DNA of 64,000 bases from Auricularia sp. M13 (Eukaryota > Basidiomycota > Agaricomycetes > Auriculariales > Auriculariaceae). The first letter of the stretch is position 1. Each line of letters begins with the position of its first letter. The stretch covers positions 992,001 through 1,056,000 of the forward strand of contig CM073202.1 in NCBI GenBank assembly GCA_037042915.1, in the 5' to 3' direction. Shown one piece after another: positions 22,444 to 41,184 of this stretch. A model generated the notes under the pieces. That model was not told the origin of the DNA. It did no database searches and saw nothing but the letters and a program-made list of their open reading frames with translations. The position numbers and the translations under genes are program-made.

Positions 22444-24165
22444 ATGAAACCGAGCATATCAACGACATCGGTCTTACCGATTGTCCCTCGGCTTGCGTTA
22501 TGGAGTCGACGGCAGCACATTGACGCCCTACCTAACGAGGTCATCGGACGCGCGTTTGCGAGTTTGAGCGTAGATGACCTTCGTTCTGCTGCCCAAGTGT
22601 GTGTCCGTTGGCGCAGGCTTGCAGCCGGCTACATACGCCGCGACCATTCTCTGCCCTGGAACGTTCTGAAGGACTTGTTCTCACTGCTGGATTCTCCAGC
22701 TCTCCAGAATGCATCCCGTGTTTCTGTCTCCTGGAACGCCGCCGCTCTCTCGTTCTTCTCCAAGCGCCTGGGGAAACGCCATGTCCACGAGCTTCCGGCC
22801 GAGGTCGTGAAGCATGCGTTCGCGTTCCTGGACTTCGACAACCTCCGGTACGCTGCCCAGGTGTGCGTGCGCTGGCGCGATCTTGGAATCGAGCACCCTG
22901 GATTCTGGCAGAATATCGTTGTTACATCCGCTTCCGCCGGCTCATTATCGATGTTGGAGGCTCGTCTGGGGCAGAGCGGTAGGAGACCCTTTACACTGAC
23001 CGTCGACATTCCCAGTATGCATCCGCTCATCGAGACGCGTCTTATGAACCTCCTCCGTGCTATTATGCCGAGTGTTCAAAACCTTTGCATTCGCCTGGAT
23101 TCGTTCTATCTGATCTCCTTATGGCGAGTACTTGACCATCCTGCTCCTCAACTGGTCAAATTCGAGTTGAAGCTATATTCGCCGGATGATATCTTGTCTC
23201 GCATCCCTCTCGCCCCTTGGATCTTCGACGAGAAGTCCGGTTCATTGAAGGAGGTCGTGCTCCACAATGTTATCCCTGTCAACGATTCGATCCCATATCC
23301 TGCTTTCAGTAAACTGCGCAACCTGTGCATAAACCTTCCTCCTGGCAGTATCTGGGAATTTCCCAGCTATCTCTTCGACTTCTGCCCCCACCTGGAGGAA
23401 TTTGCGCTTTACTGTGGGACGCTGACCTTCAACAAAGGCGTATCTGAAGAGACTCGACAGGGACTCGCACGGCTGAAGCTTCTAGACATCCATCTTGACC
23501 CGCCTGCGCGTGCACAGTTCGTGCAGTCCATGCCTCTCAAAGATACCAACATAGTCCTTTTCACAACGCCCCATGACTTCGACGCAACCTACGACTTTCT
23601 CGCGGACGTCCGCTCCCCCTTCAACCTTGCAATAATAAGCCTGACGCCAAGACATCTCGGTATTATCGTTCAGGATATCAATTCCGCTTATCAGCGCACT
23701 TTCGTCGAGCCGGTTGACCTGTACGTGTCAGACCCCGAGGGCAACGAGCTGGCCAACGTGCTATTCGAGAACAACGAATTTCCAGCCCAGGTCGTTATGT
23801 TCAAAATCTCGATCTTGCTGTGGGATCGCCTCGCGCCATACCTGGCGTACTACACGACGATCGCCAAGCTGGTCATAGACTTCGATTCCATGCCTGCTTA
23901 CACCGAGTTCGTGGTCGCGCTGCCTCGTAAACTCTTGCATTTCCCATGCCTCACAACATTGGTGCTCGAGAGTCGGAAGGGCGTGCATGCTACCGTTGCC
24001 GCCGAAGATGTCGTTCACTTTGTGGACACGGTCATAGCGGCGCCGCTATGCCGTCAGCTCGAGCTGTATCGCGTCCTGCTTGGGGGTTCGCGCGTTGCAG
24101 TCGCGCAGAGATTTGACACCGTGACATTCTCAAGCGAGGGGAGCGCAGGACTTCTTGTAAAATAA
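22444..24165 (+). CDS. F-box protein with three F-box-like repeats, 573 aa, single exon
   Basis: The frame is uninterrupted from the ATG at 22444. Three successive F-box-like segments occur at roughly residues 26-60, 75-105 and 118-155: IDALPNEVIGRAFASLSVDD, LPWNVLKDLFSLLDSPALQN and VHELPAEVVKHAFAFLDFDN. The first and third share the ending AAQVCVRWR. The rest is a leucine-rich region typical of basidiomycete F-box proteins. SCF receptors normally carry one F-box; here the repeat suggests internal duplication, with the middle unit diverged. Predicted to bind Skp1; the target is unknown. Intronless structure contrasts with its neighbours. Confidence 0.75.
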   Translation: MKPSISTTSVLPIVPRLALWSRRQHIDALPNEVIGRAFASLSVDDLRSAAQVCVRWRRLAAGYIRRDHSLPWNVLKDLFSLLDSPALQNASRVSVSWNAAALSFFSKRLGKRHVHELPAEVVKHAFAFLDFDNLRYAAQVCVRWRDLGIEHPGFWQNIVVTSASAGSLSMLEARLGQSGRRPFTLTVDIPSMHPLIETRLMNLLRAIMPSVQNLCIRLDSFYLISLWRVLDHPAPQLVKFELKLYSPDDILSRIPLAPWIFDEKSGSLKEVVLHNVIPVNDSIPYPAFSKLRNLCINLPPGSIWEFPSYLFDFCPHLEEFALYCGTLTFNKGVSEETRQGLARLKLLDIHLDPPARAQFVQSMPLKDTNIVLFTTPHDFDATYDFLADVRSPFNLAIISLTPRHLGIIVQDINSAYQRTFVEPVDLYVSDPEGNELANVLFENNEFPAQVVMFKISILLWDRLAPYLAYYTTIAKLVIDFDSMPAYTEFVVALPRKLLHFPCLTTLVLESRKGVHATVAAEDVVHFVDTVIAAPLCRQLELYRVLLGGSRVAVAQRFDTVTFSSEGSAGLLVK

Positions 24166-24498: not shown

Positions 24499-27400
24499 TT
24501 ATGACGAGGGTAGACCTTGCAGGCGAGCAGGTACATGGACGCAAATGTCAAGTGGAAAGCTGTATATACCCTTTGCTCCATGTTCAAATGCTTGAATCAT
24601 CGCGATACCCTCGTGGGGTGCGACCAGTGGATGGCGCCGTGCAAGGACAACATGCAGCCCCGCCAAAATGGTCTTGGGTAACCTTGAAGCCAAGTCGAAA
24701 GCAGAAGGATCTTCGGGATCGCTGCCAATGGTCTCCACCGTCGCCACGATAATTCTGCTGTTGAATATCAGCTTCCCAAGGGAAACTTCGAAGAGCATTG
24801 TTGCAGGGACCATAGCGCAGTGCAGGAGGAGATCCCGCGTCTCCACAGGCGACAGTAAAGATCGCTTGGGATGTACGAGTGTGATGTGCGGCTGCGTGTA
24901 GATGAGGCGTGGTTCCGAACGTGCTGAGACCAGAGTGTCTTTCCATGTCGTACTCAGTAGGCCTGAGGTAGACTGGTTTACTGCACGATCCAGCAACGTC
25001 ACAACGTCGATCTCTGGCAACAGAGCGTAGTGGCACATGGGTCTGCTGCCCTGGTCGACCTTCGACGGCATCTCCTCGCGTAACGAAGAAGCGCCCAAGC
25101 CAGCACATCGAACTGCGGCGCGGATATCATGAGGGGACGGCCGTCTAATTCCCAGTCTCTCGATAACGCCATCGACTGCACGGTTGAGAGCTTCCTCCAT
25201 GTCATCCTCATACCGCATGAGAATAACGGCGTCAGCTTCGTGGTCTTCTATAGCTTCGTATTCTGCGGAGAAACATCTGACCGTGCGATCCGATGTAGAA
25301 CACAAGGTCGCCATGTTACGTTCCTTTATGCGCCACGAGGAGACCCTTTGCGCCATGGCAATATTATCTGTGGTCATCTTCCAGTCAAACACTAGGACTT
25401 TGGGCTCGGGAGTGATAGACGGCATCGCATCGAATATCCTCTGGCGGCGTGATGCACGATGGCAATTTCTGGGTAGCGTGTCAACAATGCCAAGCGCTAC
25501 GAGCTTGGCTGGCGCACCCATCGGCAAGCACGACGCTGTTGTTCTTGAACGCTGGACCAATGGCCTGATCGAATTGTGCCTTTGCCTTCTTCGCAGATCT
25601 CGCGCTGCCGGTTCCACTTTCGATATGCTTGAAGCCGAATAGAATGGATAATGCACGAGCTATGGAGGTTTTCCCTGGATGGATAGACATCAGTGGGCTG
25701 GTACGGTGCACGTAAGGACTTACCACAACCCGGCAGGCCTAGGAACAGAAACAGCCACTTGTGATCGATTCCATACTCGACTGCCTTCAGAAACGGCGGC
25801 GTCTGTGCGGCACGAGTTTCGAGCTCGCGGACCTGGCCGATAGCCTCAGTCCAGCATTCCATGCCTTGAGGAGTATAGAACCAGGTTAGAAAGCGAGTTC
25901 TGATGGATATAAAACCGCGTCGCTTCGACCTATCCAACAGTATCGCCTGAGACGCTATCTGAGCAGAGATCCACGTTTCGAACGCTTTCAGTTCCGATCG
26001 AGCGAGCAGGATCTTGCTGAGTGGGTGCGCTAATGTTATGGCTGTTCGAACAACATGGCGATCAATTAGTTGTTACACGCACCGCTCATTTCGATCCGAC
26101 GCACCTTGCCCATTAAGCGCTGCCAACGTAATCATGCGCATACCGTGGTAAAATTTGTAACGATTGAAGTAGACCTTAAAGAAGAAGGGGTATCCAGCGT
26201 CGTGGGGGGGCGGGTAGGGCATGAAGAGTGGCCCTGGAGACACGTTCCCCACAGATGCCCCTACGGTGCCACGGACAACGACGCCTTCGACAGGTATGCC
26301 GCGCCAAGACGCAGAGTTCGTGTGATCGTTTACAAGGCCTTGGACCTCGTCGAGGCTACTGAATGTCTCATGCACGACCGGAAATAATCCCCACTCGATG
26401 GCAAATGCAGCAACGCATTCTGGGCTCTCCGTGGAGAATGTTACCGTGCGCACGTTGATCCCGTGCAGATGAAGACCAACACGGGTTTGTGGAACCGGCA
26501 TTACGCGCTCTTCGAAAGCATCGTCCAGGAGCTATGCGCAACGATGAGATTGCATTCATGAACTGACATGAAATGATGTTCACCTCGCACATTAGTGTCC
26601 AATTATTGCACCACAGTAAATCAGCAAGGGCTTCCGGAGACTTGTTTGCCCTTTTCAGCTGCTTCAGCAACCACGTTTCACCGATATCTGCGTGCTGGCT
26701 TTCGCGACATGTCTGAGCACGAAGCGAGCCTCTTGAAGACACGAGAAGCTGCCTGGGCGCGACCGCAGAGACCATGATGAGGCTCCCATTCAGCTTTGCG
26801 GTAACATGAAAAGGCCCATTCAGATATGCAGCCAGCGACTTCCACTGAAACAAAAGTAAGATATGTGTTGTGGGAATACATGTTCACTCACAGTGCTCCA
26901 GGGCACCTCGTCAACACCATAAATCTTGTCGTATCCTCGAAATACAATTCGATGGGGCACACACATATTCGCACTTCCTCCTGGTGCAGGCGCGCAAGGT
27001 GTCGTCCAGAGAGAACGAGCAAATGTAGGCAAGGCGGGAGGGAACCTATAAAAAGCACGCTTCGGGATAGTCCAGATCGTGATACAGTGACCATAGCCCG
27101 TGTTCAACGATTTTGCTCGTACCATTGGATTGCACCGCATTGTATCGACAAGCGCCGTGACTTCGTCTAGGTGTGAAATCTCTTTGGGGCACGAGCTGAG
27201 GGCAGAGGCCGCAAGGAGGACGCTGGAACCTGACATATCTACGTGCCTATGCCCAAGAGTGACATCAGAAGGAACCAGCACGCGGTGTCTATCCAGCCGT
27301 CTCGAAATAGGCAGACAATTCGTCAGGAAACGAGCGCCGATTGTGTCCAGCAGACGGCGCTGCATAGGTGTCCTGCAAATATCATGAAGTGCAGCGGGCA

Positions 27401-28076
27401 TTTCGAGTCGTAGAGTCTCCGCAACTCCGGTGGCCGCTCGCAAAAACGTCGCGGCGAAGCCTTCGGCAGTGTCGAGATCAATGCAGAGGTCAACCTCGAC
27501 CGGTTGTAGTGCCTCATACTCATTGACACAGCCTAGGATTGCGGCTCTAGATTCAGCGGTGCGTCTACTGCCATTCAGACAGAAAGACTCGATCTCAGAC
27601 ATGGGCAGTGACGAGATGTCCCAGTGTAGTGCCAAGATTCGCGGACTCGGGCTAGTTCCAAGGAGCTGAGCACGAAAGGCTGCCCGATGCTGGGTAGTGT
27701 GGTTAGACCTTCGTATGCCATCAGACCCCGCGTATGCGTGATACAGAAATGCAAACCTATCCGCTATGACGACGGGGGTTTCATCAAGCATTTCGATCAC
27801 TGAGGACACGAACATCTCCGTGCTGAACGCCTGAGTCGCAGAAACCACACGACCAAAGCCGAAAAGATGGCTCAATGCAATCATAATTTCAGAACAATCT
27901 AGTATGGGTATAGGTCTAAGCTCATTGCAAGCGAGGGAAATGTGCTTCCTGGACGTACTTGTTCCTGGGATGGATACGGGGAGAATAATCCATGGACTTC
28001 GGCGCGTCGGTGAATCGACGGTGGACGTCGGGGTCATCAAGTCGCTGGAGAGAACGGTAGTATCCTCGAAAGACAT
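24499..28076 (-). CDS. Fungal tRNA-ligase (Trl1)-like protein with extra N-terminal kinase-like module, 1069 aa
   Basis: Eight exons (28076-27959, 27898-27757, 27708-26892, 26844-26584, 26531-26105, 26041-25724, 25674-25518, 25468-24499) join to exactly 1070 codons. Residues ~30-150 resemble a polynucleotide kinase whose P-loop is lost (PVSIPG followed by TNCSE instead of CGKTS). The ligase region has RIVFRGYDKIYGVDEVPW, motif I KLNGSLI with Lys ~376, GLHLHGIN, motif IV VEGVVVRG and motif V around FFFKVYFNRYKF. Then come WFYTPQG, a good P-loop GLPGCGKTSIAR (Lys ~696), a DGNCH motif, and a 2H-phosphoesterase-like end with HITLVH (~941) but HVV (~1019) in place of the second HxT. Trl1 heals and seals tRNA exons and HAC1-type mRNA. 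The unusual motifs suggest a diverged paralogue. Confidence 0.8.
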
Positions 28077-28328
28077 GATAGTGTAGAAGTGTATGGTGCC
28101 AGGTGGGAAGGCTTATTGTAGCGGTGTGCAGGGAGCTTGTATATGGTTATTATCGTCGCCAAGGCGATGAAATCCGGGCCGGGTTTCCGAGGTCATTTGC
28201 ACTCCGCCGGCTTCCGGCGTACGGCCGGGACTTCGGCCCTCGAAGCTTGAAGCTTGAAGTACAACAGTGATACTTACAAAGTACTGGTACAATAGACTGA
28301 TCTCTCTTCACCTTCATTCAGCCCGACC
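28077..28328. promoter_or_regulatory. Divergent promoter of the two RNA-ligase genes
   Basis: The 252 bp between the start codons must drive both genes. It includes palindromic CCGGCTTCCGG and GGCCGGGACTTCGGCC words (about 28207-28236) and a short repeat GAAGCTTGAAGCTTGAAG (28241-28258). Confidence 0.4.
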
Positions 28329-29412
28329 ATGACTGACGCTTTCATAGGATATCCCCGCACACCAACGTTCGCGCGTTTCAAGAACGAATACGTGCGGGCT
28401 CAAGAGGCCGCGACTGATGGCGGCGTTCCTGCGCTGCCACTCCCCTCGCGGGGCACGTTTTTGGGCACCGTAAAGCTACATGGGACGAACGCGACGATAG
28501 TATTTCGCAGCAACGACAAACAAATGCCTCAGTTTCAATCGCGGACGCGTATTATCGACATAACGACGGACAATTGCGGGACAGTTGCCCATCTCTCGCG
28601 CGCACCGCTGCACGAGCTTGTTGACCGGATCCTCCAAATATCCGGCGTGAAGACCTTCGACGAGATAACGATCGCGGGAGAGGTGGCAGGTACAGGCATC
28701 ATGAAGGGCGTGGCGATTGCGTATGTGCCGCGACTCTTCGCTATCTTCAACCATTCGTATTGACGGTGCATGGGTCGACATGCGTCGCTACGCGTCCGTC
28801 GCTCTCCGTGACTACCGGGTATTCAACCTCGCCGCGTGGCCGACATACGAAATCGATATCGACTTCACGAAAGACATCGCCGACATCGATGCGAAGCTTT
28901 CCGCGCTGACTGACGAGGTGGTCGACGTCTGTCCGGTCGGTCGGGTACTGGCGGGCGAGGCACAGCCCACCGAGGCAGGCCAGGCGGTCACCCGTGCGGG
29001 TGAAGGCATCATCTGGACGCTTGTCGAGTCCCTCGATGACGTCCCATTGAACCGAGGCCAACTCTTTAACTTCAAGACCAAGGGCGCAGCTTTCGCAACG
29101 GCTGCTCATGCGCCAAAGGTTTCTCCTTCTGCAGACAAAGTCTCCAAGGCTCAAGCATTCGCGCGGTACGCTCTGGCTGAGCGTCGCTTCGAGCAAGGCG
29201 TCGAGTTCGTCGAGCAGGAGCTGGTGCTCGCTAGAAGAGTAGGCGAGACGGCATATCAGTCTGAACTGCTACCCAAGTTCACCGCATGGGTGATTGAGGA
29301 TGCGACCAAGGAAGAGCGATATATGATGGACGAGATGGGGGTAGGCGAGCGGCTCGCGCGCAAGGCCATGGATCAGCTGGCCACGTCGTGGTTTTCAGCC
29401 CGAGTACTGTAA
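28329..29412 (+). pseudogene. Rnl2-type RNA ligase with a single-base frameshift
   Basis: The N-terminal frame reads TFARFKNEYVRA, then motif I GTVKLHGTNATIVF, with the KxHGTN signature of T4 Rnl2-like ligases, and motif III GEVAGTGIMKGVAIAYVPRL. It runs into a stop just after LFAIFN. The next frame, one base earlier, continues at once with IRIDGAWVDMRRYASVALRD, then motif IV GEGIIW and motif V LFNFKTKG, and ends at 29412. Total length is 3 x 361 + 1, as expected for one extra base, near 28754-28759 (AACC). No GT-AG intron explains the shift. Such enzymes seal 3'-OH/5'-PO4 RNA ends. It may be a recent pseudogene or a sequence error. Confidence 0.8.
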
Positions 29413-30245
29413 ATGCAGCTAGCGACCGGATGCTATCATCTTAGGCACTGTATCGTCCACTGTATCGGTATGTCGTTAATATTTCACGAAGTACAGTTCG
29501 AGCGAGACGCCGCTGGGTGCCAGGATTGGTACAGAAACTGCCGCACCCGTTGCTGCGGTTCGCATGACTTGCCCCGGCTTTTGTCGTGCGAAGGACAGAT
29601 AGTACTAGTACGCTCGAACCCCCAACAGCCTGCGCGAAGAGTGGCCAAGCAGCATTTACTAAAAGCAGAACGAGCAGCACCAGAGGCACCAAAAACGCAG
29701 TGAATACCCACAGCTGCTGCCTAGATATTTTCCACTGATTGCGGCTTATAGTGGCAAGAATGGACCATCGAGTCTGCATGAAAGGCGGGCAGGGCGAAAG
29801 AAAGCTAACTGATCGTAATTGCGCGCTAGTGAATACATAAATGCTGTTGAACCTATCCTTGCGCCTCTGACAGGCTCCTGCCTGCGCACCACAACGCTCA
29901 AGTCGACGCACGGTCTGTCCGGGCCTGATGTGCGCAACCAGTGAACGGAGCGGAGCCAATGGGTTCCGTTTCAGCAAGACCGGCCTAGTATGACAATCAG
30001 AGACTGCGGGAGAGTGCTTGTCGGTTCGACATACCAGGAGTAGTTCTGAGTCAAGCGTGGGCCGGCGCTTGGGTTCCTACAGCGGCGGCACCATCCTGGT
30101 CATGACACGCGTTCCGATGTGCTGTCGCATCTGGCAGCGGCGCAGCACCTGTCAGAAAGATCGGTATGGATGGTAAACGATACGCGGGTGTAGTGTACCT
30201 CTGGCATTCACGATAGAAGGTTCTTGTGGAAGCTGCAACGGCGCT
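29413..30245. other. No gene supported
   Basis: A minus-strand frame at 29441-29977 includes a hydrophobic run (WVFTAFLVPLVLLVLLLVNA) but no recognisable start, splice chain or family. No other signal was found. Confidence 0.4.
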
Positions 30246-30338
30246 TCAGAGTTGGCCTGGGTCGGCAAAGAGCTCGTCAGGAACATGGAGAGGCGGCACG
30301 AGAATCCAGTCTAAGAGCTCGTCCGAAAGCCTGGTCAT
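30246..30338 (-). pseudogene. F-box gene 5' remnant
   Basis: The minus strand reads MTRLSDELLDWILVPPLHVP and a few more residues, then a TGA at 30246-30248. This matches the start of a common polypore F-box family (LSxELLxxIL.PPLxVPDxxF). The expected continuation was not found, so it appears to be a fragment. Confidence 0.45.
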
Positions 30339-30617
30339 CGTTCTTGATATCAACCAGATGTGCAAGGTGCAGCAGCGCACGCAGCTCGATTGCGTCAATG
30401 GCTAAGATATCCCCAACCTTCGGAGGTTACCGAACGGAGATATCACGAGGGCTTCCTAGGATCTCATACTACTATCATCTCAAGTCTGCAATCAAATAAC
30501 ATAGGCGAATTACGCAGGACAAAGAATACAATACTGTAAGTCTAGGAGCACAAATACAAATACCCATACATACAGTACAACGAAGATACCCGAGAAAAGA
30601 GACACAGAAAAGGAAGC

Positions 30618-33600
30618 CTACAGCTGAGAAAGCTCGTCGATCTTCTCCTGGCAGCGCTGCACGGCGCGGCCATCATTGCCCTTCTTGTACAGAGCAAGCG
30701 AACGCTCGTAGCGGACGCGGGCGCCGTCGCGGTATCCGACGCCGAGGCAGACGTCGCCCACGCGCGAATGCACGTCGGCGGACAGCCGCCAGTAGGTCGG
30801 GCGGCGGCAGAGCGCACCTGACACATGGTACGCCGCAAGAGCGGGCTTGGGCGCGCCCTCCGCAGAATAGTAGTCCCCGAGCCAGCGCAGCTCGGACGCG
30901 ATGCCGTGCTCTGAGCGCATCTTGCGGTACAGCGCGAGCGCAGTGACACGGGACGCCAAACCCGCCGCGAGGTTGGTCTGCATCGCGTGCTGGGCGTCGC
31001 CAATCTTGGCGAGCACATCTGCTTCGGAACGCGGCGACGCCACGCGGCGATAGGTGGAGCGCGCAGAGAAGTAGTGCGCGAGCGCAGTCTCGGGGTCGTT
31101 CATGCGGAAGCTGAGGTCGCCGAACGCGACGGCGCACGCGGCCTGGCCGAGCAGCTCGCCCTTGTGGTCGTTGAAGATGGCCTGGGCCTCCTCGAACCGG
31201 CTGCGCGCGAAGTCGAGGTTGTCCATGGAGAGCGCGACGTTGCCCAGCTCGAGCAGGGAATGCGCCTCGCGCGCGCGGTTCACCGCGCTGCCCGCCACGG
31301 CCACGGCGGCATGCGCGACGGGCGGCGCGAAGCGCGGTCCCCATGCCATGGGCCCGAAGCCACGGACCATCATCAGCACGTCCTCGTGCGTGGCGAGCGC
31401 GTCTGCGAAATCGCAGCGCGCGCGCGCGATCTCCGCAAGCCGCGCCAGGGCGTCCGCCATCTCCGGCGCGCGACCCGCCTTCTTGAAGAGCCCGAGCGCA
31501 GATGAGAATTTGTTCGCGGCGGCAGCCAAGTTGCCGTTGCGCTGCGCGACGATGCCCATGACTTTCTGGCAGCGCGCCTGCCAGGTCGTGTGGTTGTTCT
31601 TGCGGAAGATGCGCATCGCCTCCTCCGCGCGGGCCTGCGCCTGTACGAGGTTGTCGGCGGTGAGGTCACCAAGAGGTCACACTGAGCAAGATGGAGCAGG
31701 CATTCGCCCTCGCCCATCTTGTCGGCAGCCTCGCGATAGAGCAGTCGGGCCTCATCGAGCTTCTGCGCCGCCAGGACGTGCGCATCGGTGCCCGAGAGTG
31801 CGAGCGCCCACTGCTTGACGCAATGCGCCTGTCCGCGCACGTCGCGGACCATGTTCATCGCGGCCTCGAATTGCCCGACAGCGCCCTCGACGTCGCCGCG
31901 CTCGCGTGCAGCCTCGGCAGCACGGATCATCCACTCGCCCTTCAGGGAGTCGTCGCCAATGGCCTGGGCAGCCTTAATCGCGAGCTGGAAGCTCGAGCTG
32001 CGCAGGGAGCCGCGCAGGATGCGTCTCGCCGTCTTCCGCGGTGCCGATCTTGGCAGCGCGCGCGGCAAGCGAAATGTAGTGCGCCTCGAGGACGGCCAGA
32101 TGGTCGTTCTTCGGCTTGCGGTTCGCGCAGAAGTACGCGCGGATGGGGCCGAGGACGCAGAGACGGCGGGTAGAGCGCGGGTCGGTCGATGCGGGCTTGT
32201 GCGCCTCCAGGAACTTCGCGGCGGGGGAGACGGCGAGCGCAGCGGCAGGGAGCGGCGCAGGACCGGGCAGCGGAATCACGTCGTCGTATGCGAGCGCAGT
32301 CTGGCGGAGCACGCTGGCGGCCTTGCCGACGTTGGGCAGCGCGCGGGCGATCTCGCCGAGGCACTCCTCGGAGAAGCCGTCGGGGACGAGACACAGCAGC
32401 GCCATGAGCTCGAGCGCAGGCTCGCCCTCCGCCCTCATGCGCGGCGCCGCGATGGTGATCTCGATGCAGATGTCGAAGTTGCAGTCGCGCGATTGCACGC
32501 CGCGGTAGAGCATGGACGTGCTCTCCTGCTCCCAGCGTGCCAGCAGCGCCGTCATGGAGTCGTACTGCGCGATGTTGGCGAGGAGCGTGATGGCGAGCGG
32601 GTGCCCGCCGCAGCGGTCCAGCAGCTTCGGCATCGTGGGCTCGTCCTCCGCGGCATCGGAGATGTCCATGAAGGTGTTGCGCGCAGCCTCAGTCTCCAGC
32701 GTGCCGAGCGCCGGGAGGAACGGGTGCGACCAGCCAGGCCCGAGCGGACGCTCGGCGCCGCGCAGGACGACGATGAGGGCGAGCGTGTCGATGCCCGCAA
32801 TAGCGCTGAGGACCTTCTCGACGGCGTCCCGGCGTCCCTCGCTCGAGTCTTCCCACGGATCCTCAAAATGATCGAGCACGAGAATCGCGCGCTTGCCCTT
32901 GCACGCGAGGCGCGCGAGCACCATGTCCTGCACGGGCGTGTCGTCCATGCGCTCGGAGACGCGCAGCTCGAAGTGCTCCGCGAGCTTGCGCAGCAGCTCC
33001 GAGTCGCTCTTCGTGCCCTCGCAGGAGACGTAGTAGCGCCGGAACGCGTAGCGCTCCGTGGTCCGCGGGTGGTGCAGCGCGGAGAGGGCCAAGCTCGACT
33101 TCCCGATCCCCGGCGCGCCGAGGATCGCGAGACGTGCGGGGGGCGCGGGTGGCGCGTCCTCCAGGGGGGCGATGTGCTTGAGGATGTCGTCTATCATCGC
33201 CTTGCGCCCGTGGAAGATGCCCGGGCGCGGTTTCAGAAGCGGCTCCTCGAATCTGAGTAAGCGTGTTAGTCTATCTCTCCAGCGTCAGGAATTAATGAAT
33301 ATACGCACTCAGGCGCGAGCGGCGTCTTGCTGCGCGCTGCTTCACTCTGCAGGCCATCTTCGTCCTGCGCCTCGCACTCGCCATTCTCCTGCGACGTTGC
33401 AGATGAGTATTTCGTCGACAGTGAAGGCCGATATGAAGCTCACATCTTCTGCTTCTTCCGCCACTTCCTCCTCGCCATCTTCGCCGCGGATGGCGCGCAT
33501 GTACAACTTGTGGTTGCGCTGGACGGTCTGCAGGATTTTGTTGTCGTATTCCTGCGCGATGACCGTGGAGCGGTGGATTATTATCGTCGAGCACAGCTGA

Positions 33601-35911
33601 GGAAACATGTCAGTACTCTGGGAAGAGCAAGGAGGTGAACAAACGCACGCCGAACAGATCGAGCGCATGGCGCAAGTCGTCGCTGTACTGTTTGATGACA
33701 TCCACATCGTCCTGGCTCCGTATGAAGCGCGAGAAGTAGGTCCGCTTGGCCTATTCCTGGACGAATTTGTGGATTTTCTGCAGCGTACTATCCGCGCGTC
33801 AGAGAGTCGTTACAGTACATCCCAGCGAAGAACGAAACGTACTCTGTGAGCTGCTGGATGTTGAACTTGAGTTGCGGGGAGATATTCTCCTTGCCATTCA
33901 TCTGGTTGATGGCCACGACAACCTGGCAAACATGCTCGGCCAGGCGCTCGCACGCCTCTCGGTTCGTGGTTACGAGCTACAATATGAATTGTCAGCATTA
34001 AGCGGACATTTTGGATGGAAGTAAGCTCACCTGAACGCTATCCGTGATGAGCACGGCGAGGCCTGCGATACCTTTCGCGTAGGGGATGTTCATCCCCATC
34101 GGCGACTTCGCGCAAAGCACGGAAGGTGAGCGACGCAGCTGCGAGCGCGGTCTCCTTCGCGCCACCACTGGACGACCGCCGCGGCGGAGGCCTGAGAGGC
34201 ATTGACGGGCCTACAGAGGACGACGAGGTCGCAGTCGGCGACGCCGCCAGCGTGCTGGTCGCGGGCAGCGAGAACGACACGCGGTGCTTGGCGATGGAGC
34301 TCTTGCGCTTCACGGCGAGCTCGGTGTCCTCGTCCTCCTGCTCGTCCTCCAGATCAGAGTCGGTCGCGCGCTCCTTGCCCTTGCGGCTGCGTCGGCGGCG
34401 TAGGCCCGCGGACGGCGGGTAGACGTGCGCCTGGGCGGACGTCGAGGCCGTCTGGAACGAGTCGGTGCGCGAGATGCTCGCGATGGGGATGTCGAATGTA
34501 TACAGGTTGTCGGCCTTCTCGTCTGCGAAACCCGACGACGTGGAAGCGGGCGACGGCGTCGACGCCGCGCGCTGCTTGCCCTTCCATCTGATGCTACTCA
34601 TCGAGGTACTGCCTACGACAGTCGACGTGCCAGTCTCGAGCGAGTCGCCCGAGAGCGCGCGCGCGTGCTTGCGCCCGAACGAGCCGAACTGGAGCGGGCC
34701 GCGCCGCGTCGGCGTAGGTGCTGGAGCGGCGGCAGCGGCGTGCTCGCCCAGGTCGAACGTGTTTGCCGGCGAGAGCGAGAGCGGGCTGTCGACGAACAGC
34801 GCTGCGCCCGCACCCGCGTCGCCTCCCTCGCTGTCTATGCTCTTTCCGGGCTTGGATGAGACTGGGGACAGCGGCGGGGAGGCGAGGCTCGCGGCGGCGG
34901 CAAAGAGCCGCCTCCGAGGGCTGGGCGTCTGGTCCTCTGCGCTATTCGCAGAGGGCGGCTGATCGTCCTTGTTCTTTCCGAGCTTGGATGAACCTGCGGA
35001 CGATGTCGCATGACCAGAGGGCGAGGGCGAGGGCGGGAGGCTCTTGCGGGCAAACAGTCGCCTGCGAGGAGGCGAGGGCTCCCCCGCAGCTTGTGCGGCG
35101 TCTTTGTGCTTTCCGTTGTTGGATGCAACTGGGGACGCGACCAGAGGATCGGAGCCAAAGTCGACTGAGGACGCGGGCGAGGGCAGCGTGGCACGTTTCT
35201 TGAGGATTCCGCGCGTGGGAGTGGGCGCGGGCGAGTCGAGATCGAACGAGGAGACCGGGGAGAGCGTGGGCGGGCTGGGAGGCAGTTTCTCAGCGACGGA
35301 GGGCCCGGGCGAGGGCGAGCGGAGCGCCTCGACCGATTCGTTGGGCGTTGAGGATGTGGAGGACGACGACCGAGAGCTGCCGCGAGAGGACTTGCGTCTC
35401 AGCGGGAGCGACCAGTCAAAGCCGGAAAGGCTCCTGCGGTGCTTGGGAGCAGTCGACGTCTCGGAGCCAGACTTGTCCTTGGACGGGCGACGCGAGAGCG
35501 AGGCGAGCGACCAGCGGCTGGAGGCTGGCTTGTCCTCGTTGCTGGCCGTGCTGGCCGAGCTGGAGTCGGACGACCGTCGGCTAGGCGTCGGCGACGCTGG
35601 CCGGTGCGGCTTGCGGAGGACCTTGAGCGGGACCGGCGGCGGCAGCTGGAGCGGGGGAAGAGCGGCGGCGGCGTTGCGCTTGGCCGCCGACGAGCTCGAC
35701 GCGAACCATGTCTTCGGCGACGGACCTTCTTCGTCGGGCTCAGCCTGGGCGACGTCGGCGGCGTCGGGAGCTCGGTGGGCGCCTGAGATGGCGCGGCGGG
35801 GGCGCTGGGCGCTGGCGGTGACGGGGACCGCTTGCGGAAGCCAAAGCGCCGCCTGGCGGGCGTGGGCGACACGGGGGTCAACGGGCTCGGGGAACGAGCA
35901 GCTGTGCTCAT
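30618..35911 (-). pseudogene. NB-ARC/TPR (STAND-type) protein, decayed
   Basis: In order on the minus strand: a long Ser/Pro-rich N terminus, a helical MLKL-like segment (IAGLAVLITDSVQ, REACERLAEHVCQVV, LRHALDLFG), an NB-ARC domain with P-loop ILGAPGIGKSSLALSAL and Walker B AILVLDHFEDPWE, and TPR repeats (AREAHSLLELGNVALSMDNL, ALYKKGNDGRAVQRCQEK) to the stop at 30618. The frame is broken several times: near 34090 (GGGG run), near 32030 and near 31675, with an in-frame TAG at 33751-33753 in the helical segment; a further frame change occurs in the low-complexity region near 35740. Intact relatives are presumed innate-immunity or incompatibility receptors of fungi. Several lesions argue for a true pseudogene, though assembly indels could add to it. 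Confidence 0.75.
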
Positions 35912-36249
35912 CGTTGCGGCCGGCGTCGAGGGTGTCGTTGGAGTTGTGAGAGCAGAAGAGACAGGCAAATCGCACCGGGCAGACATCGCCGCAACGCACG
36001 GGCTGTGTGCCAGCCTGATCCGTCCGGCTGATGCCGACGTGCTTCTTGAGCGCCTCGCTCACAGTCCACCTCATCCTGTGTCTGCCCTTGCCCGCCGTCT
36101 CGCTGTAACACTATCCCCACATAGACGAGTGGCAGACCTTACGGAGGCTCTGGTCAGATTATTCCCACCAGAATCCCAGTTGCACGCTGTCCCATCACGA
36201 AGGTGTTACATGAAACCGCGAGTCTGGCATTCACACGCTCATGACAGTT

Positions 36250-36595
36250 CATTGTAACAGCGGATCCGCCGACTCCACAACAGCTCTCAGCCAGCTTGGA
36301 CCTGTGCTTATCTGCCTCTGCCTATACTCTATCTGTCTTCGTTGTAGCTCAGGTGTACTGTCGTCTGCGTTGCGCGGAGCTGATTTGGCTCAGGCACAGC
36401 TTATCTCCGCACTGTCAATCAGAGATCGTAGCGTGCTTCCCCCGATCGGCGAATCGTCTGCTCGGCGGGCCGATCTGCCGGTGCATGTGCTGGCATCGTC
36501 GACGTCCTGCACTTCATGTCACTTGCACGGGGCGGCACTGAGCACGCTTGTTACAATGGCCGTGCCGCTGCTGTGTCGTGTGATACAGATCTAAT
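36250..36595. repeat. Diverged copy A of a locus-specific repeat
   Basis: It shares with 37970-38140 the ordered words TTGTAACAGCGGATC(C/T)G, CGACTCCAC, GTGCTTCCC(C)CGATCG and GGGCCGATCTGCCG(G/A)TGCAT. It lies just upstream of the ligase-like remnant at 36671. Confidence 0.5.
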
Positions 36596-36670
36596 GATGA
36601 CGAGCATGTGCAAGACTGTGCCTTCATTGAACGACATGTCGCGCTGCCAGTGTATCACTGTGTAGTCATC

Positions 36671-36919
36671 ATGAGTACTGCACGCGATGGTCATTGTGAC
36701 TGCGCTCGCAATGAGTTGTACATGTCGAACGAGGTAACCCTGCGCCCAATATCCTTCGGAAAACAAGCCTCAGACCGCCGCTCCGAAACAACAGCTAGTA
36801 CCAAGCCACTGGCAGACTCGCTTCCCACGCGCGGTCGCGTGCTTGGAACATTAAAGGTTCTGAATGCCAAAGTCTGCGAAGAAGACGACGACTGGTTCGC
36901 CGATCATGTCCTACGGTAA
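36671..36919 (+). pseudogene. Possible RNA-ligase-like remnant
   Basis: An ATG-started frame of 82 codons contains SLPTRGRVLGTLKVLNAKV. This lines up with LPLPSRGTFLGTVKLHGTNA, the motif I region of the ligase at 28329, but the HGTN part is changed to VLNA. The frame ends soon after, and nothing ligase-like follows. Similarity is short, so the call is tentative. Confidence 0.25.
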
Positions 36920-37406
36920 ACTAAGGGACGAACTCGCATGATGGTCCATTGTGCGTTATCATGGGACCGAGAATACAATGGTGGATTGCGCCTTAGCTCT
37001 CTATTAATTCTCGAAAGCGTGCCGCGAGGCAACCGGCACAGGCAGAACACAATGATATCGGATCCAGCACCACTGTTCCAAGTGTTGTTGTCCACTGCAC
37101 CTTGTCTCCCGCTCACGCGGACGCATTGCTTCGCGAGGAGCTGTATGCCTACGTGTTGTCAATGTCATGTGCTCATTTTGAAATTAGGCACGTCTCCGTC
37201 GATGTTCGTGTTGATAGCCACGTCTCGGAGACCCAGCGGAGGTTGACCGGCCGGCGGTAATCAACATCGCGTCTCAAGCCGTTCTCGCGCATGCGTCGCC
37301 CTTGAGGACTTTGACATATGGAAAAAGAGAGGAACATAGCTCGAATTCTTATGGGCATTGGGTTGAGAGTAAATACAACAGGCTCGCAGCGAGACCTGCG
37401 CACTGC

Positions 37407-37758
37407 GGCTACTTCCGCATACGCGGACGATATGAGCGCGCTGCCTGGATGGCCCCAGCCTTCTTGTCCTCGTTTGGCATGTCCAATCCCAGAAAATCAA
37501 CTACACCAGACACTGCGCGCCTCAAAGAATCTTCCAAGTCCTCGAGAGGATTCATTTCCACGACCGCGTCGACCTCGTCCTGCATGAGCGGCTCCGCCTT
37601 TTCCAAAACCCTCCAGAGAACGCTGCGCAGCAAAGAGCATAGACGAGAGAAAAACTAATCTGAATTTGTCTCCAAGAGAAGATACGTTTGCTTGCATCGA
37701 AACTGCGAGCCGAAACGCACAAATCCGAACTGCAGGAATGTACTTCAAGTTCCTTCAA
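37407..37758 (-). pseudogene. Remnant of the kinase-like module C terminus
   Basis: Two minus-strand frames, shifted relative to one another near 37650, read SFDASKRIFSWRQIQ and then LRSVLWRVLEKAEPLMQDEV, MNPLEDLEDSLRRAV and DFLGLDMPNEDKKAGAIQAA. These match, in order, ILSWRQGQ, LTRVLWKFLREVQ, MDPLEGLEAAMERVI and DIVGLDIPHPARLLGAIHAA at the end of the fusion gene at 38443-41184. The P-loop part is absent, so this is a broken paralogue in opposite orientation. Confidence 0.7.
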
Positions 37759-37969
37759 GCAGGGACGGTCCTAGTCTCCTTCGCAGACTTTATGTTCGAA
37801 GATAATCGTTCGAAATAAAGGACGGTCCTTGATCGTACTTGAAAGAGAGGACTGATTTCGGTGAAGGGAAAGGCGCTGCAGCTGTCGGCGAAACGGTAGA
37901 AACGTTCCGACCATTTCGATTGCCCGTTCCGACTCGTTTCGACTCGTTTCGACCGCTGGGACACCCCCC

Positions 37970-38140
37970 CTTGTAACAGCGGATCTGACGACTCCACCCC
38001 TGCGACATCTGCCAGCATCTGCCTGCGCTTTAGTAGCAAGGAAGTCCCTGCGACTCCGACGCTTGCACGACGTGCTTCCCCGATCGTGTGCACAACGGGC
38101 CGATCTGCCGATGCATATGCGTTTGGTCATCTTACTGTAG
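37970..38140. repeat. Diverged copy B of a locus-specific repeat
   Basis: Counterpart of 36250-36595, sharing the same ordered words. It lies upstream of the Tpt1-kinase gene. The pairing suggests that an ancestral segment with its upstream flank was duplicated. Confidence 0.5.
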
Positions 38141-38442
38141 TATCAGTTTGCTACCATGTTGAACCTGTCCCTGTCCTTATAGAAGAGATCGCGCCCTATT
38201 ATATATTCTACTGCTCTGCGAGTCGTAGTACTTACCTGTTTAGTACGTACGGGTGGGTCCGGTGATGGTGGTAGTCGCCGATAGCCGTGGCTCCGCTTGT
38301 TCCCGGCCACGGGATGCACCTGATTCCGTTGTTCTTTCGTGGCACCCCTGGCCATTGTAATTTCGCTTCTTCAAGTTGAATCGTGCGTGACAGGACCATT
38401 GTGACCCGTGCGCTCAACGCCCCAACGTTTCTCCAACCCATC

Positions 38443-41184
38443 ATGAACTCTGCAGACAGACACCAGCTTTCGCGAGATCTGGGCGTAGTTCTGCGTCACA
38501 GCGCTCCTCTTTATGGCCTGCCCATCCGCGAAGACGGCTGCGTGAAGGTTTCAGACCTGGTACGGCTCATCTCGCGACATGTGACGATGACTGACAAAGT
38601 ACTCTTGTAGCTCAGACTCGATGAATTCAGTGACGTGTCGCTCGAAGGCTTGCAAGAGGTGGTGGACAGCTGCCCAACTCAACTGGAGCTCATCAACGAG
38701 ACTGCATCCAATCGTCCTGAGTGGCTCATTCGCTCCACCAGTGGACACACCATACCAGTGTGCAGCTCTTTGCCCCATTTTTGGCGGACACGCGAGCTGA
38801 GGTTCCATTAGTCTGTCTGCGTCGGCACTCAGCCCGCGATCGACGTCGCAGGAATGCGGCTCGAAACTATGATCTACTGCACTACAGTTACAAACTTGAA
38901 ACGAATACGTGAGTCTCGTTTAGGTGCGTCCAACGTTGCGGTCTAATTGTACCAGGGCGAGCATGCGGTGTCAAGAGACAGGAAGGTTGCAAATACATTA
39001 TCCTTAATCGACAAGAGCCTTTCACTCGCCACAAATGTGTGCCATCTCCACGGATTCCTGTCTTGTTCTGACGCGGGACAGCCGTTCTCCTATTCCTCGA
39101 CATCGAGAGAGCATTGAAGGCAAAGCTACAGTTTTTTAGGGTGGGAAGAAATGCCTTCGCGTGTCCAGGCAATGCCAAAGGTGTAATTCCTCTGAGATAT
39201 TTCTTCAAGATTGAAACACGCGAAGCATCTGGTATGTCGCTTGCTCTCGTCCTCCGCGTAGAGTGAGCTAAGATTGCAGCGTCGATAGAGCTCTCTCCCT
39301 CGAGCGGTACACTAACGCGGAATGGCGAGAGCTCTGGCGCAGACGGGCGAATGCAGACTCAGCTCTCTGGGCGTTCGGTGCGAGCCACGGAAAGGGGCGC
39401 CCGGCGGTGGATGAGGGCCTTTGTTTCCATGCCGCAAGCACAGTCAGAACACTATACTTGCGGTCTGGCGGCCAACTTTTGCTGGACTGACGCATCGGAG
39501 CCTGGACCGTCGACTTGGCCACCGACTTGGGATGCGCAGGACGACACGACGAGTCTCTGCGATAGTGACGAGTCGGACGACATCGAGATCATTACATCGA
39601 CGACGCAGAACCTCGCTGGCCCACATAAGCTGTCGCCGGAGGCTCCAACATTCTTTCCGTCCGCCGTGGAAGTGCAAGCGAGTACTACTTCCTCAATTTC
39701 ATGCCTCCTCGTTCCAAGCGCGACGCTATTCCGCTATCCCCGCAACGCGGCATCTTCTGAACTTTCTGACAAGTGGCTTATCTTTCCTGTCTCTATCCCC
39801 GGCTGTGGTGCGTATCAGCGACACTGTGACCACATACGTCCAACTAACAAGCTTTGCAAGGAAAAACCAGTGTTTGCGCGGCACTGGCGCACCTATTCGG
39901 CTTTGCACATGTGCAGGCTAATGACGTGACTCGCAATGTCAGTGACAACGGAGGACGTCGCAGCTTTGGGCGCCGCGCGCAGCCTTTCCTGGACGCTGTC
40001 TCAGGGCATTTCAGGATAAACAGTGTCGTGCTAGCCGATAGGTGCATACTTCGTGGATCCATCGCGATGTCTGACCTAGGGTTCTGTGTACAATGCCACG
40101 TTTTAAACACGGGTTAAAAAACAGTGTTTAAAACATTGTTTTAAAACAGATGTCCGAAAATTGGCTGTTTAAAAACAAAATACAGTTCAGTTGCAGGACC
40201 TCTGAGACATGTGTTGGAGGCATGGATTTTGTCTTTGTGCCATTTCCTGCTATATCCTAGCAGCCTCCATTGCTGGTAGCATATGAGTTAGCTGCATCTC
40301 GCATCTCACACAGGTGATCAGTGAAAGATTCATTCAACTGCAGGAGCTGTCTCAGTGCTGTAAGTAACTAATTAGCAAGATCTCACAAGAGAACAGCATT
40401 CTTCCAGTGCCCAGACCTGAGAGTGTTGTTAAACATCTAGTATAGAAAGTGGCTCATTCTGACCTATATTCTCACAGGTAGAAGTTTACAACATTACATC
40501 GAGCATTAAAGTTTCAAGTACCATGCATTGCCAATCATACCTGGCAGGTATCTGTGATATCCTAGGGTATGAGGAGGTATACCTGGGCAAATTTGACTGG
40601 AAGGTTGCTTTTTCTAAGCTTGTCTCGATGTTTCTAATGCATTACATAAGCTTTGTTTTAAACACTGTTTTAAACACCTGTTAAATAACGGGTTGGTAAA
40701 AAAACAGGTTGAGAATAGCTCGGGCATTTTGCACAGAACCCTAGTCTGACCTTTGCAACTCAGGAATAACCATCTCTTTCACCACCGTTCGGAGCTGCGC
40801 GCCGCCTGTCAATGGGCAGAAGTAGCGGGAGGGAGCAAGCCCAAGACAATCGCCTTGCGCTGGTGCCCAGGACCGCGATCAATGCGAGCGGTGCACACAA
40901 GTTGCATGCAACGTATTCTATCGTGGAGACAAGGTCAACAATGGTTCGACGCGCGGCCTGGGGACACGCTCACTCGTGTTCTTTGGAAATTTCTACGCGA
41001 AGTCCAATTCCAGCCGCTTGGAATGGACGAAGTCGACTATGTCATTGAGATGGATCCATTGGAAGGTCTGGAGGCGGCGATGGAACGCGTCATTGTCAGT
41101 TTGGTTGATATTGTTGGATTGGACATACCCCACCCTGCGAGGCTGTTGGGGGCTATTCATGCAGCTCGGTCGTCCCTCGCGTAG
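38443..41184 (+). CDS. Predicted fusion of Tpt1/KptA RNA 2'-phosphotransferase and polynucleotide-kinase-like domain, 573 aa
   Basis: Eight exons (38443-38559, 38611-38757, 38812-38908, 38956-39036, 39082-39231, 39280-39807, 39861-40041, 40764-41184) join to exactly 574 codons. The N-terminal half is Tpt1-like: LSRDLGVVLRHSAPLYGLPI with the Arg-His pair, RPEWLIRSTSGHTI with the second Arg, VLLFLDIERALKAKLQFFR and a GVIPLRYF end. Tpt1 moves the 2'-phosphate left by Trl1-type ligation to NAD. A polar linker follows, then LIFPVSIPGCGKTSVCAALA (P-loop, ~residue 377), HLFGFAHVQ, LADRNNHLFHHRSEL (DRNNH motif of the Trl1 kinase) and a C-terminal helical block. The first two exons fix the start. The last intron contains a 667 bp hAT-like element. 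No CPD or ligase domain is visible. Confidence 0.8.
40077..40743. mobile_element. hAT-like non-autonomous element (MITE), 667 bp, inside an intron
   Basis: Terminal inverted repeats TAGGGTTCTGTG...CACAGAACCCTA bound the element. The exact 8 bp duplication GTCTGACC lies at 40069-40076 and 40744-40751. An 8 bp duplication and TAGGG-type ends are hallmarks of the hAT superfamily. The interior is AT-rich with many subterminal TTTTAAACA words in both orientations and has no open frame of note. Removing it and one duplication restores a 47 bp intron of normal size. Confidence 0.88.

Follow-up and report, generated by a model that had tools for sequence, protein, structure and literature searches.

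Two old protein families, probably derived from host tRNA-splicing enzymes, with altered catalytic residues at one locus of Auricularia sp. M13

Introduction

Yeast requires both Trl1 and Tpt1 for viability, and these enzymes are usually seen as single-copy housekeeping functions. RNA-repair systems, including Swiss-Army-Knife proteins, were reportedly surveyed by Burroughs and Aravind (NAR 2016). PMC6949252 describes how yeast Trl1 phosphorylates the 5'-OH fragments of no-go decay ahead of Xrn1. Here, we analysed a 64,000-nt stretch of the Auricularia sp. M13 genome (GCA_037042915.1, contig CM073202.1, positions 992,001 to 1,056,000; hereafter the window), in which a preliminary description had proposed an expanding RNA-repair cluster of 17 kb, distinct from the housekeeping tRNA-splicing set.

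Results

The separate canonical genes for which that description had proposed a search were both found, namely a three-domain TRL1 on C7 and a TPT1 with HGT on C4. With 66% identity between this TRL1 and one Auriculariales protein, and 49–54% for six others, the fungus probably stands closer to Auriculariales than to the polypores mentioned in that description. Thus, the window genes are not the only copies, in agreement with a non-housekeeping set, and profile searches gave hits that identify the ligases, kinases and Tpt1 named earlier as real by Pfam, with the Rnl2-type copy just under the cut-off. TRL1 aside, matches to the families of two window genes, here called T and K, were confined to C10 between 0.70 and 1.03 Mb, so that the proposed expansion holds as multiplication of both families within one chromosomal region.

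Gene T (28076-24499, minus strand) was modelled from splicing, Pfam and its relatives C10:706k and P0001 as eight exons (28076-27959, 27898-27757, 27708-26892, 26844-26584, 26531-26105, 26041-25724, 25674-25518 and 25468-24499) encoding 1069 aa, with seven of seven introns (47–63 nt) bounded by GT-AG. Its architecture is K1-LIG-K2-CPD (kinase-ligase-kinase-CPD), every module being Trl1-derived; the LIG, KIN, CPD order of Trl1 is therefore present, the CPD by alignment, and the single kinase module previously assigned to T is corrected to two. Pfam scores for the whole protein, taken on a first model (1085 aa, seven exons), were 178.1 bits for RNA_lig_T4_1 (cut-off 28.3) and 37.7 bits for tRNA_lig_kinase (cut-off 22.7). 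Although the CPD end scored 17 bits when searched as an exon and 13.3 in the spliced product, both under the Pfam cut-off of 23, it aligned end to end with the CPDs of C10:706k and P0001, and the earlier reading of a 2H-like end was upheld. All four modules lie on the minus strand with approximate limits: K1, an N-terminal Trl1-type kinase, at 27369..27998 (set by hand from alignments and the kinase tree), the RNA ligase LIG at 25887..27071 (Pfam and residue table), the second Trl1-type kinase K2 at 25099..25760 (residue table) and the 2H phosphodiesterase-like CPD at 24502..25041 (residue table, Pfam below cut-off). K1 has no intact P-loop (GTNCSE where GCGKT is expected); LIG retains motif I KLNG and motif IV EGVVVR.

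Active-site residues were compared at 25 sites with 12 canonical Trl1s (the genome's own TRL1 and 11 others; C. thermophilum numbering), and departures from the canonical residue were found at 8 sites in T, 13 in the 706k paralog and 10 in P0001. Residues shared without exception by the 12 canonical proteins are missing from each of the ligase, kinase and CPD of T. In the ligase, the motif I Lys, motif IV Glu, first motif V Lys and Arg337 are kept, and the second motif V Lys (to Y), His227 (to R) and Arg334 (to H), retained by 12/12 canonical Trl1s, are lost. His227 is likewise missing from 706k and present in P0001, and Arg337 occurs in all three proteins; PMC6592678 reports both residues as essential. 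K2 has an intact P-loop (GCGKTS) with the invariant Asp changed to G and NNH to NCH, and the CPD has an intact first HxT motif (HIT) with the second changed from HVT to HVV. Judged by the residues of active Trl1s, T would fall short in ligase, kinase and CPD alike, and active repair is not supported.

T is 38% identical to its 706k paralog, the frame of which is open from K1 through the CPD end (start codon not located). The T architecture appeared in one of nine outside search hits (about 8000 candidates scored), P0001, the other eight being canonical Trl1s; P0001 keeps the same K1-LIG-K2-CPD order across 99% of T. Its AlphaFold model matched solved Trl1 LIG structures at TM 0.77–0.82 (by target length) and KIN structures at 0.68–0.73, with a weaker CNPase match of about 0.5. 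The T family branches apart from the 12 canonical Trl1s with support 100/100. No ortholog of T was found: P0001 clusters with 706k in the tree, and the T branch is long, so that constraint on T itself may be relaxed. A further T-family copy is broken into pieces spread over about 67 kb, and four of four pieces gave a dN/dS of 0.29–0.35 against C10:706k. Together with the Rnl2-type pair described below, to which dN/dS comparisons were also applied (T and K lie outside both), these ratios show purifying selection in relatives where testable (0.24–0.35).

Gene K (38443..41184, plus strand; splice model, Pfam and P0010 alignment) is a Tpt1-like, PAM2-like and Trl1-type kinase fusion of 573 aa in eight exons (38443-38559, 38611-38757, 38812-38908, 38956-39036, 39082-39231, 39280-39807, 39861-40041 and 40764-41184). 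All seven introns are GT-AG and the spliced frame is complete; an apparent break is in fact a 669-bp transposon-like element (MITE-like, with inverted ends CTAGGGTTCTGTG, at 40076..40744) within the last intron (40042-40763). P0010 spans six of the seven exon junctions, five of them gap-free to nine residues on each side, including the joint across this 722-nt intron, and one gapped. K scored 72.2 bits for PTS_2-RNA (Tpt1; cut-off 26) and 45.2 bits for tRNA_lig_kinase (cut-off 22.7).

The Tpt1-like domain (38443..39231, plus strand) has intact LRH and IR...GH, and the NAD+-holding HGT, present in the genome's own TPT1, is replaced in all three K proteins (YCTT, YRST and YCTT). The first three residues of the Arg-His-Arg-Arg tetrad, those of the RNA lobe, are retained in window K and C10:763k alike; the fourth falls in a shortened, unalignable loop, and P0010 lacks the N-terminus. 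Tetrad and HGT were judged against structure-function data in PMC6333775. The Trl1-type kinase (39771..41184, plus strand) carries P-loop GCGKTS, ADRNNH and the subfamily motif SWRQGQQWF, and GxGKT and ADxNNH occur in 3/3 K proteins. The Asp after the P-loop helix, invariant in Trl1, is N, S or I in these proteins, followed by an acid in each (D, E, D), and W-x-x-GQQWF stands in place of the RGxNHQ lid. Because of the replaced Asp and the lost lid, this kinase may be inactive too. Subfamily motifs are conserved.

K is 40% identical to its C10:763k paralog, which has a complete spliced reading frame, and in the kinase tree is nearer to P0010 than to this paralog (support 99/94). The K architecture was found outside in one of four search hits, P0010 (about 8000 candidates scored), so that outside conservation of the T and K architectures amounts to one protein each; both are probably transcripts, given their uninterrupted frames on short contigs. 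A third K-family copy survives as a decayed kinase end (37415-37692, minus strand; 45/92 residues identical to the C10:763k copy), which accounts for the kinase-module fragment noticed earlier.

Between the Tpt1-like and kinase domains, K contains a PAM2-like motif, HKLSPEAPTFFPSA (39624..39665, plus strand), of the type that binds the MLLE domain of poly(A)-binding protein. The PAM2 profile PF07145 (cut-off 20) gave 30.5 bits in C10:763k and stayed below cut-off in P0010 (17.6) and the window K exon (12.9), and a Pfam search of the whole window K protein listed no PAM2 match. The strict core is present in 3/3 K proteins and was reached by 0–1 of 5000 shuffles. A genome search returned a single MLLE match. 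We give K an even chance of being bound to Pab1 through this motif. Among the matches listed in a literature search, no PAM2 protein carried an RNA-end-healing kinase or Tpt1-like domain.

An intronless Rnl2-type RNA ligase copy (KLHGTN; 28329..29412, plus strand) has one +1 frameshift near 28752, which may be an assembly error. Its RNA_ligase score before the frameshift was 25.5 bits, just below the cut-off of 27, and a six-frame genome search with this profile gave no match in the window. The intact paralog at C11:491010-492125 scored 36.9 bits, and is 71–75% identical to the window copy (dN/dS 0.24 for the pair); a sequence search of solved structures with this paralog gave no match at E 0.1. 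Elsewhere on the same chromosome, at C10:1494k, lies a Swiss-Army-Knife gene (PF22784, AAA_33) that either adjoins a PF09414 ligase or is fused to it.

A gene with three F-box stretches (22444..24165, plus strand) is convergent with T, and a homolog in the same arrangement adjoins each of the two other T-family copies (F-box identity 49–50%). Positions 30254..36487 are a recent segmental duplicate (92–98% DNA identity) of C10 ~754.6-760.9 kb, holding a Ser-rich 690-codon ORF (34041-36110, minus strand) and a decayed NB-ARC/TPR gene (30621-33284, minus strand). Compared to the uninterrupted 926-codon ORF at C10:754981-757758, with which 865 of 884 aligned residues match, the latter lacks 41 residues and has two frameshifts. 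NB-ARC genes adjoin both K loci, among at least 13 NB-ARC matches in the genome. The decayed NB-ARC gene seen earlier is therefore real; as a sign of a conflict setting it is a weak clue, considering the number of matches and the recent duplication.

Discussion

It is highly probable that the locus holds two old families that arose from host tRNA-splicing enzymes and were given a new, non-housekeeping job. Old copies fused anew, with many catalytic residues lost, suggest that broken RNA would be sensed or tagged rather than mended, and neofunctionalised RNA-end-recognition proteins are the best explanation overall, which we hold with middling confidence. A specific role of K and T in end tagging or decay is a more tentative proposal. 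T and K would recognise RNA ends or 2'-phosphates arising from endonucleolytic cleavage or Trl1-type joining and leave repair incomplete; the PAM2-like motif would dock K on the MLLE domain of Pab1 and place its kinase on mRNA fragments, 5'-OH pieces would be handed to 5'-3' decay (the second role of the yeast Trl1 kinase) or marked, and T could bind such ends without catalysis or serve there as a decoy. A bolder and rather unlikely version is that K is a reader of 2'-phosphates or cleaved ends, whose Tpt1 RNA lobe would grip the 2'-/3'-phosphate junction with removal no longer possible, with PAM2 as the tether to Pab1 on mRNA, a 5'-end kinase of its own and T as a pseudoenzyme partner in a eukaryotic surveillance branch; this branch would then route endonuclease-cut or Trl1-joined mRNAs (e.g. 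from HAC1-type splicing) to decay, or shield them.

An active cluster, as the preliminary description had it, in which tRNAs or further RNAs are rejoined after cleavage by anticodon nucleases or ribotoxins or under stress, would fit the presence of ligase, kinase, CPD, Tpt1 and Rnl2 modules within 17 kb, the Lys of motif I and the Glu of motif IV retained by T, and purifying selection on the Rnl2-type pair (dN/dS 0.24). However, it is improbable in view of the 8/25 altered sites of T (in the ligase His227, Arg334 and the second Lys of motif V, in the kinase the Asp and in the CPD the second Thr, among others), the loss of HGT from 3/3 K proteins and the frameshifted Rnl2 copy, and "repair" is the part of that description that found no support. 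Were the genes simply old TRL1 and TPT1 duplicates decaying without a present role in a transposon-rich region, the broken T-family copy, the frameshifted Rnl2 and NB-ARC copies, the K relic and the long T branch would be expected; yet T, K and C10:763k have complete frames and 706k an open one despite identities of only 38% (T/706k) and 40% (K/763k), window K is nearer to P0010, from outside, than to 763k (99/94), the 706k comparison gave a dN/dS of 0.29–0.35, and subfamily motifs are conserved, which makes plain decay a poor candidate. The F-box gene beside each T-family copy and the NB-ARC genes beside both K loci could instead point to conflict or allorecognition genes that detect the cleavage of RNA, foreign or self, and signal degradation or cell death with these neighbours. 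This, too, we consider quite doubtful, as F-box genes are widespread among agaricomycetes, NB-ARC matches number at least 13 genome-wide, the NB-ARC pair is one recent duplication with a broken window copy, and the T/F-box pairing may be mere co-duplication.

If a kept family of RNA-end-recognition proteins is indeed present, a tRNA-splicing toolkit would have been recruited for mRNA surveillance, the K proteins would be natural Tpt1 variants possibly separating 2'-phosphate binding from removal, and the idea of RNA 2'-phosphates as read marks would become directly testable.

Compared to Trl1 (LIG-KIN-CPD), T has three modules in the same order and three introns at the positions of those in the C7 TRL1, but differs by an extra N-terminal kinase without an intact P-loop and by altered ligase, kinase and CPD active sites. 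K shares with Tpt1/KptA the PTS_2-RNA domain, the RNA-lobe Arg-His and Arg, and the position of the first intron (as in the C4 TPT1), whereas HGT is replaced by YCTT or YRST, the loop before the fourth tetrad Arg is shortened, and the domain is part of a fusion with PAM2-like motifs and a kinase of Trl1 type. A PAM2-like core, L-S-P-x-A-x-x-F-x-P, comparable to PAM2 proteins such as Upa1 of Ustilago maydis (PMC4466420), lies in an interdomain linker in 3/3 K proteins. The window/C11 pair has the KLHGTN, EGIIW and FKTKG motifs of T4 Rnl2-type ligases (PF09414), although the window copy is frameshifted. As in the surveyed RNA-repair systems, end-healing and sealing modules are linked at the T/K locus; here, instead, they are Trl1 and Tpt1 derivatives that have lost active sites.

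Housekeeping genes and extra copies

The preliminary description had set the RNA-repair genes of the window apart from the housekeeping tRNA-splicing set, and a separate canonical TRL1 and TPT1 were indeed present in the same genome (52 Mb in 14 contigs; the window is C10:992001-1056000): TRL1, with three domains, at C7:526-529 kb and TPT1 at C4:1.61 Mb. This TRL1 shared 66% identity (541/816 residues) with an Auriculariales Trl1 and 49-54% with six others, which makes a fungus akin to Auriculariales more likely than a polypore. An intact Rnl2-type ligase was also found at C11:491 kb. The RNA-repair genes of the window are therefore additional to these three.

The Rnl2-type copy of the window (28329-29412, plus strand; ligase motif KLHGTN) showed 71-75% identity to the C11 gene, with one +1 frameshift near 28752. 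The dN/dS of this pair was 0.24 overall (359 codons), 0.22 before the frameshift (141 codons) and 0.26 after it (218 codons). The pair thus diverged under constraint, and the frameshift either arose recently or reflects an error in the assembly. The C11 paralog had no sequence match in the PDB at an E of 0.1, and none of five proteins scored above an NCBIfam cut-off. Elsewhere on C10, at 1494-1497 kb, a Swiss-Army-Knife type gene (PF22784, AAA_33) adjoins or is joined to another Rnl2-type ligase (PF09414, 118 bits).

Gene T and its relatives

Gene T (28076 to 24499, minus strand) has eight exons encoding 1069 aa, with seven introns of 47-63 nt that are all GT-AG, and the module order kinase K1, ligase, kinase K2, cyclic phosphodiesterase-like CPD. 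A model of 1085 aa was rejected, as it took a 48-nt intron as coding; it had been used in the P0001 search and alignment, the profile search, the 706k comparison, the Pfam scan, the six-frame genome search and part of the work on the broken T-family copies. The paralog at C10:706k had the same module order, introns at the same places (7/7) and an open frame from K1 through the end of CPD; its start codon was not located. P0001, a protein from outside this genome (1047 aa), also had the module order of T, at 34-36% identity over 99% coverage; it is encoded without interruption on short contigs (3370 bp at most), which suggests a spliced transcript. A protein search with T gave nine matches, namely P0001 and eight canonical Trl1s, and a profile search for further members of the family found none beyond P0001. 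When the aligner used for splice modelling was run on the broken T-family copies at 784k, 801-804k and 849k as a control, it could align them only with intron-like gaps hundreds or thousands of bases long, and in two of the three with frameshifts as well.

In the ligase tree, T, 706k and P0001 formed one branch (support 100/100) separate from 12 canonical Trl1s. The kinase tree, in which the T rows had long branches, placed K1, K2 and the kinases of gene K and its relatives in three distinct supported branches, without a resolved order among them. Three introns of T lie at the positions of introns in the TRL1 of this genome. A phase-1 intron at the P-loop and a phase-2 intron at the AD(R/G) motif occurred in both kinase modules of T and of 706k and in the kinases of K and its paralog at C10:763k (phases of the K genes were derived from exon lengths); TRL1 itself lacks these two. 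Horizontal transfer of T and K is disfavoured by the intron positions held in common with the host TRL1 and TPT1.

Active sites of T and predicted fold of P0001

Residues at 25 sites were compared among the TRL1 of this genome, T, 706k, P0001 and 11 other canonical Trl1s. Across the 12 canonical proteins, 24 of the sites were invariant, the exception being one lid Asn (11/12); departures from the canonical residue numbered 8/25 in T, 13/25 in 706k and 10/25 in P0001. The ligase of T retained Lys of motif I, Glu of motif IV, the first Lys of motif V and Arg337, and carried His227 to Arg, second motif V Lys to Tyr and Arg334 to His replacements (C. thermophilum numbering); His227 and Arg337 of C. 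thermophilum Trl1 are called essential in PMC6592678. Further losses in 706k were motif I Lys to Met, motif IV Glu to Gln and first CPD His to Arg, and P0001 retained His227 and the kinase Asp, with motif IV Glu to Gln and first CPD His to Gln. The CPD motifs of T read HIT and HVV. In K2 of T, the P-loop was retained and the invariant Asp was Gly; this Asp in PDB 5u32, which we take to be the general base, is Asn in PDB 6tzx. None of the three K1 modules had an intact GxGKT/S P-loop (GTNCSE, GCGKGL and GCGGGP).

An AlphaFold model of P0001, built from an alignment of 12 sequences consisting of canonical Trl1s, had a mean pLDDT of 68.6 and a pTM of 0.42. Its top match was a solved Trl1 LIG-KIN structure (E 3.8e-37), and it scored TM 0.77-0.82 by target length against LIG structures, 0.68-0.73 against fungal RNA kinase structures and about 0.5 against CNPase. 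Given these matches to solved structures, the folds are probably retained despite the lost residues. The P0010 model (mean pLDDT 38.6) was unusable.

Gene K and its relatives

Gene K (38443 to 41184, plus strand) has eight exons encoding 573 aa and GT-AG introns throughout (7/7); both its Tpt1/KptA domain (72.2 bits) and its kinase domain of Trl1 type (45.2 bits) exceeded their Pfam cut-offs. The paralog at C10:763k (seven exons, 733 aa) had the same domain order and three PAM2-like motifs. A protein search with K gave four matches, three canonical Trl1s and P0010, a protein from outside this genome (533 aa, on one 1923-bp contig) with the domain order of K and 47-48% identity to it. The P0010 kinase clustered with that of window K and not with that of 763k (support 99/94), which suggests that two K lineages predate the split of this fungus from the organism of P0010.

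Two readings of K as a damaged gene were considered. Decay of its Tpt1-like domain was hinted at by apparent frameshifts in a first alignment; the seven-intron model removes all stops and frameshifts and agrees with P0010. P0010 begins within the Tpt1-like domain, so that exon 1 of K is outside its coverage, and at the other six exon junctions the two proteins aligned gap-free within nine residues on each side in five cases and with a gap in one. Disruption by a transposon was suggested by a 669-bp MITE-like element (40076-40744; 22-nt inverted ends, 91%) inside intron 7; the element lies wholly within this GT-AG intron, whose 722 nt it accounts for, and P0010 reads ADRNNH joined. Both readings were rejected. 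A DNA search with the element gave at least 20 matches on several chromosomes, at least 11 of them near full length including the window copy, and the other ten such copies among the matches listed were 98-99% identical, indicating recent activity of the element.

In the Tpt1-like domains of K and 763k, LRH was retained, as was IR within the IR...GH motif. In place of HGT stood YCTT in K, YRST in 763k and YCTT in P0010, and the loop ahead of the fourth Arg was shortened. All three K-family kinases retained GCGKT and ADRNNH, with N, S or I at the invariant Asp, D, E or D at the following position, and a conserved W-x-x-GQQWF motif in place of the RGxNHQ lid. With the invariant Asp and lid replaced, the K kinase may have altered specificity or be inactive. 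The strict PAM2 core occurred once in window K, twice in 763k and once in P0010; 5000 shuffles attained this 1, 0 and 1 times, respectively. By Pfam, PAM2 of 763k scored 30.5 bits (PF07145; cut-off 20), P0010 (17.6) and the window exon (12.9) scored below cut-off, and the motif was absent from the listing for the whole window protein. As MLLE had a single match in the genome, Pab1 (MLLE domain at C4:1692633) is the likely partner of the PAM2-like motif, which in window K lies at 39624-39665.

The C10 region

Six-frame searches of the whole genome gave at least 24 matches for T and at least 11 for 763k without its linker, and those listed were confined to C7 (TRL1) and C10 0.70-1.03 Mb. Along C10 lie the T-family gene at 706k, the K-family gene at 763k, a broken T-family copy in complementary pieces (784, 801-804 and 849-851 kb, spread over ~67 kb), gene T (1016-1020k) and a K relic with gene K (1029-1033k). 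By eye, a copia-like polyprotein ORF lies directly upstream of the first piece of the broken copy. Each of the three T-family copies had a convergent F-box gene directly downstream (window 22444-24165, C10:709257-710984 and C10:851223-853453; the latter two with 49-50% identity to the window F-box over the whole length, one of them with a 497-bp gap), and the duplicated unit was thus probably the two genes together.

Between 706k and the broken copy, dN/dS was 0.29, 0.30, 0.31 and 0.35 in the four pieces (435, 151, 61 and 277 codons), so selection likewise maintained the ligase and CPD parts in which residues are altered. T and K stand outside these dN/dS comparisons; at 36-40% identity, their synonymous sites were assumed, without calculation, to be saturated.

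A recent segmental duplication links window 30254-36487 and C10 ~754.6-760.9 kb (three pieces, 92-98% DNA identity). It carries a Ser-rich 690-codon ORF with no Pfam match and an NB-ARC/TPR gene that has an unbroken frame at 757 kb and a disrupted one in the window; this duplication accounts for the decayed NB-ARC gene that had been taken as a sign of a conflict setting. The window also contains a Tf2-type LTR retrotransposon integrase fragment (61998-62999, minus strand; SH3_Tf2-1 50 bits, above cut-off; rve 31 bits, slightly below) and an 867-codon ORF (53124-55727, plus strand) with a weak DUF4218 match (12.3 bits, cut-off 27), perhaps a transposase.

Proposed role

The T/K family has probably kept its folds and has kept residues that bind RNA and NTPs, it has lost catalytic residues, selection was evident wherever it could be measured, and K may carry a ligand of poly(A)-binding protein. 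Together these features point to recognition rather than repair as the role of the family. No Tpt1 fusion or Trl1-PABP link was found among the papers listed from an open-access subset of the literature. The family may already be known in annotation pipelines; P0001 and P0010 are recorded without names. Beyond the domain anatomy, we infer the steps of a mechanism by comparison with yeast, whose Trl1 kinase, according to PMC6949252, phosphorylates 5'-OH no-go-decay fragments and so enables their degradation by Xrn1: by joining a Trl1-type kinase to a Tpt1 RNA lobe and tethering both through PAM2, K would carry a function of this kind to mRNAs.
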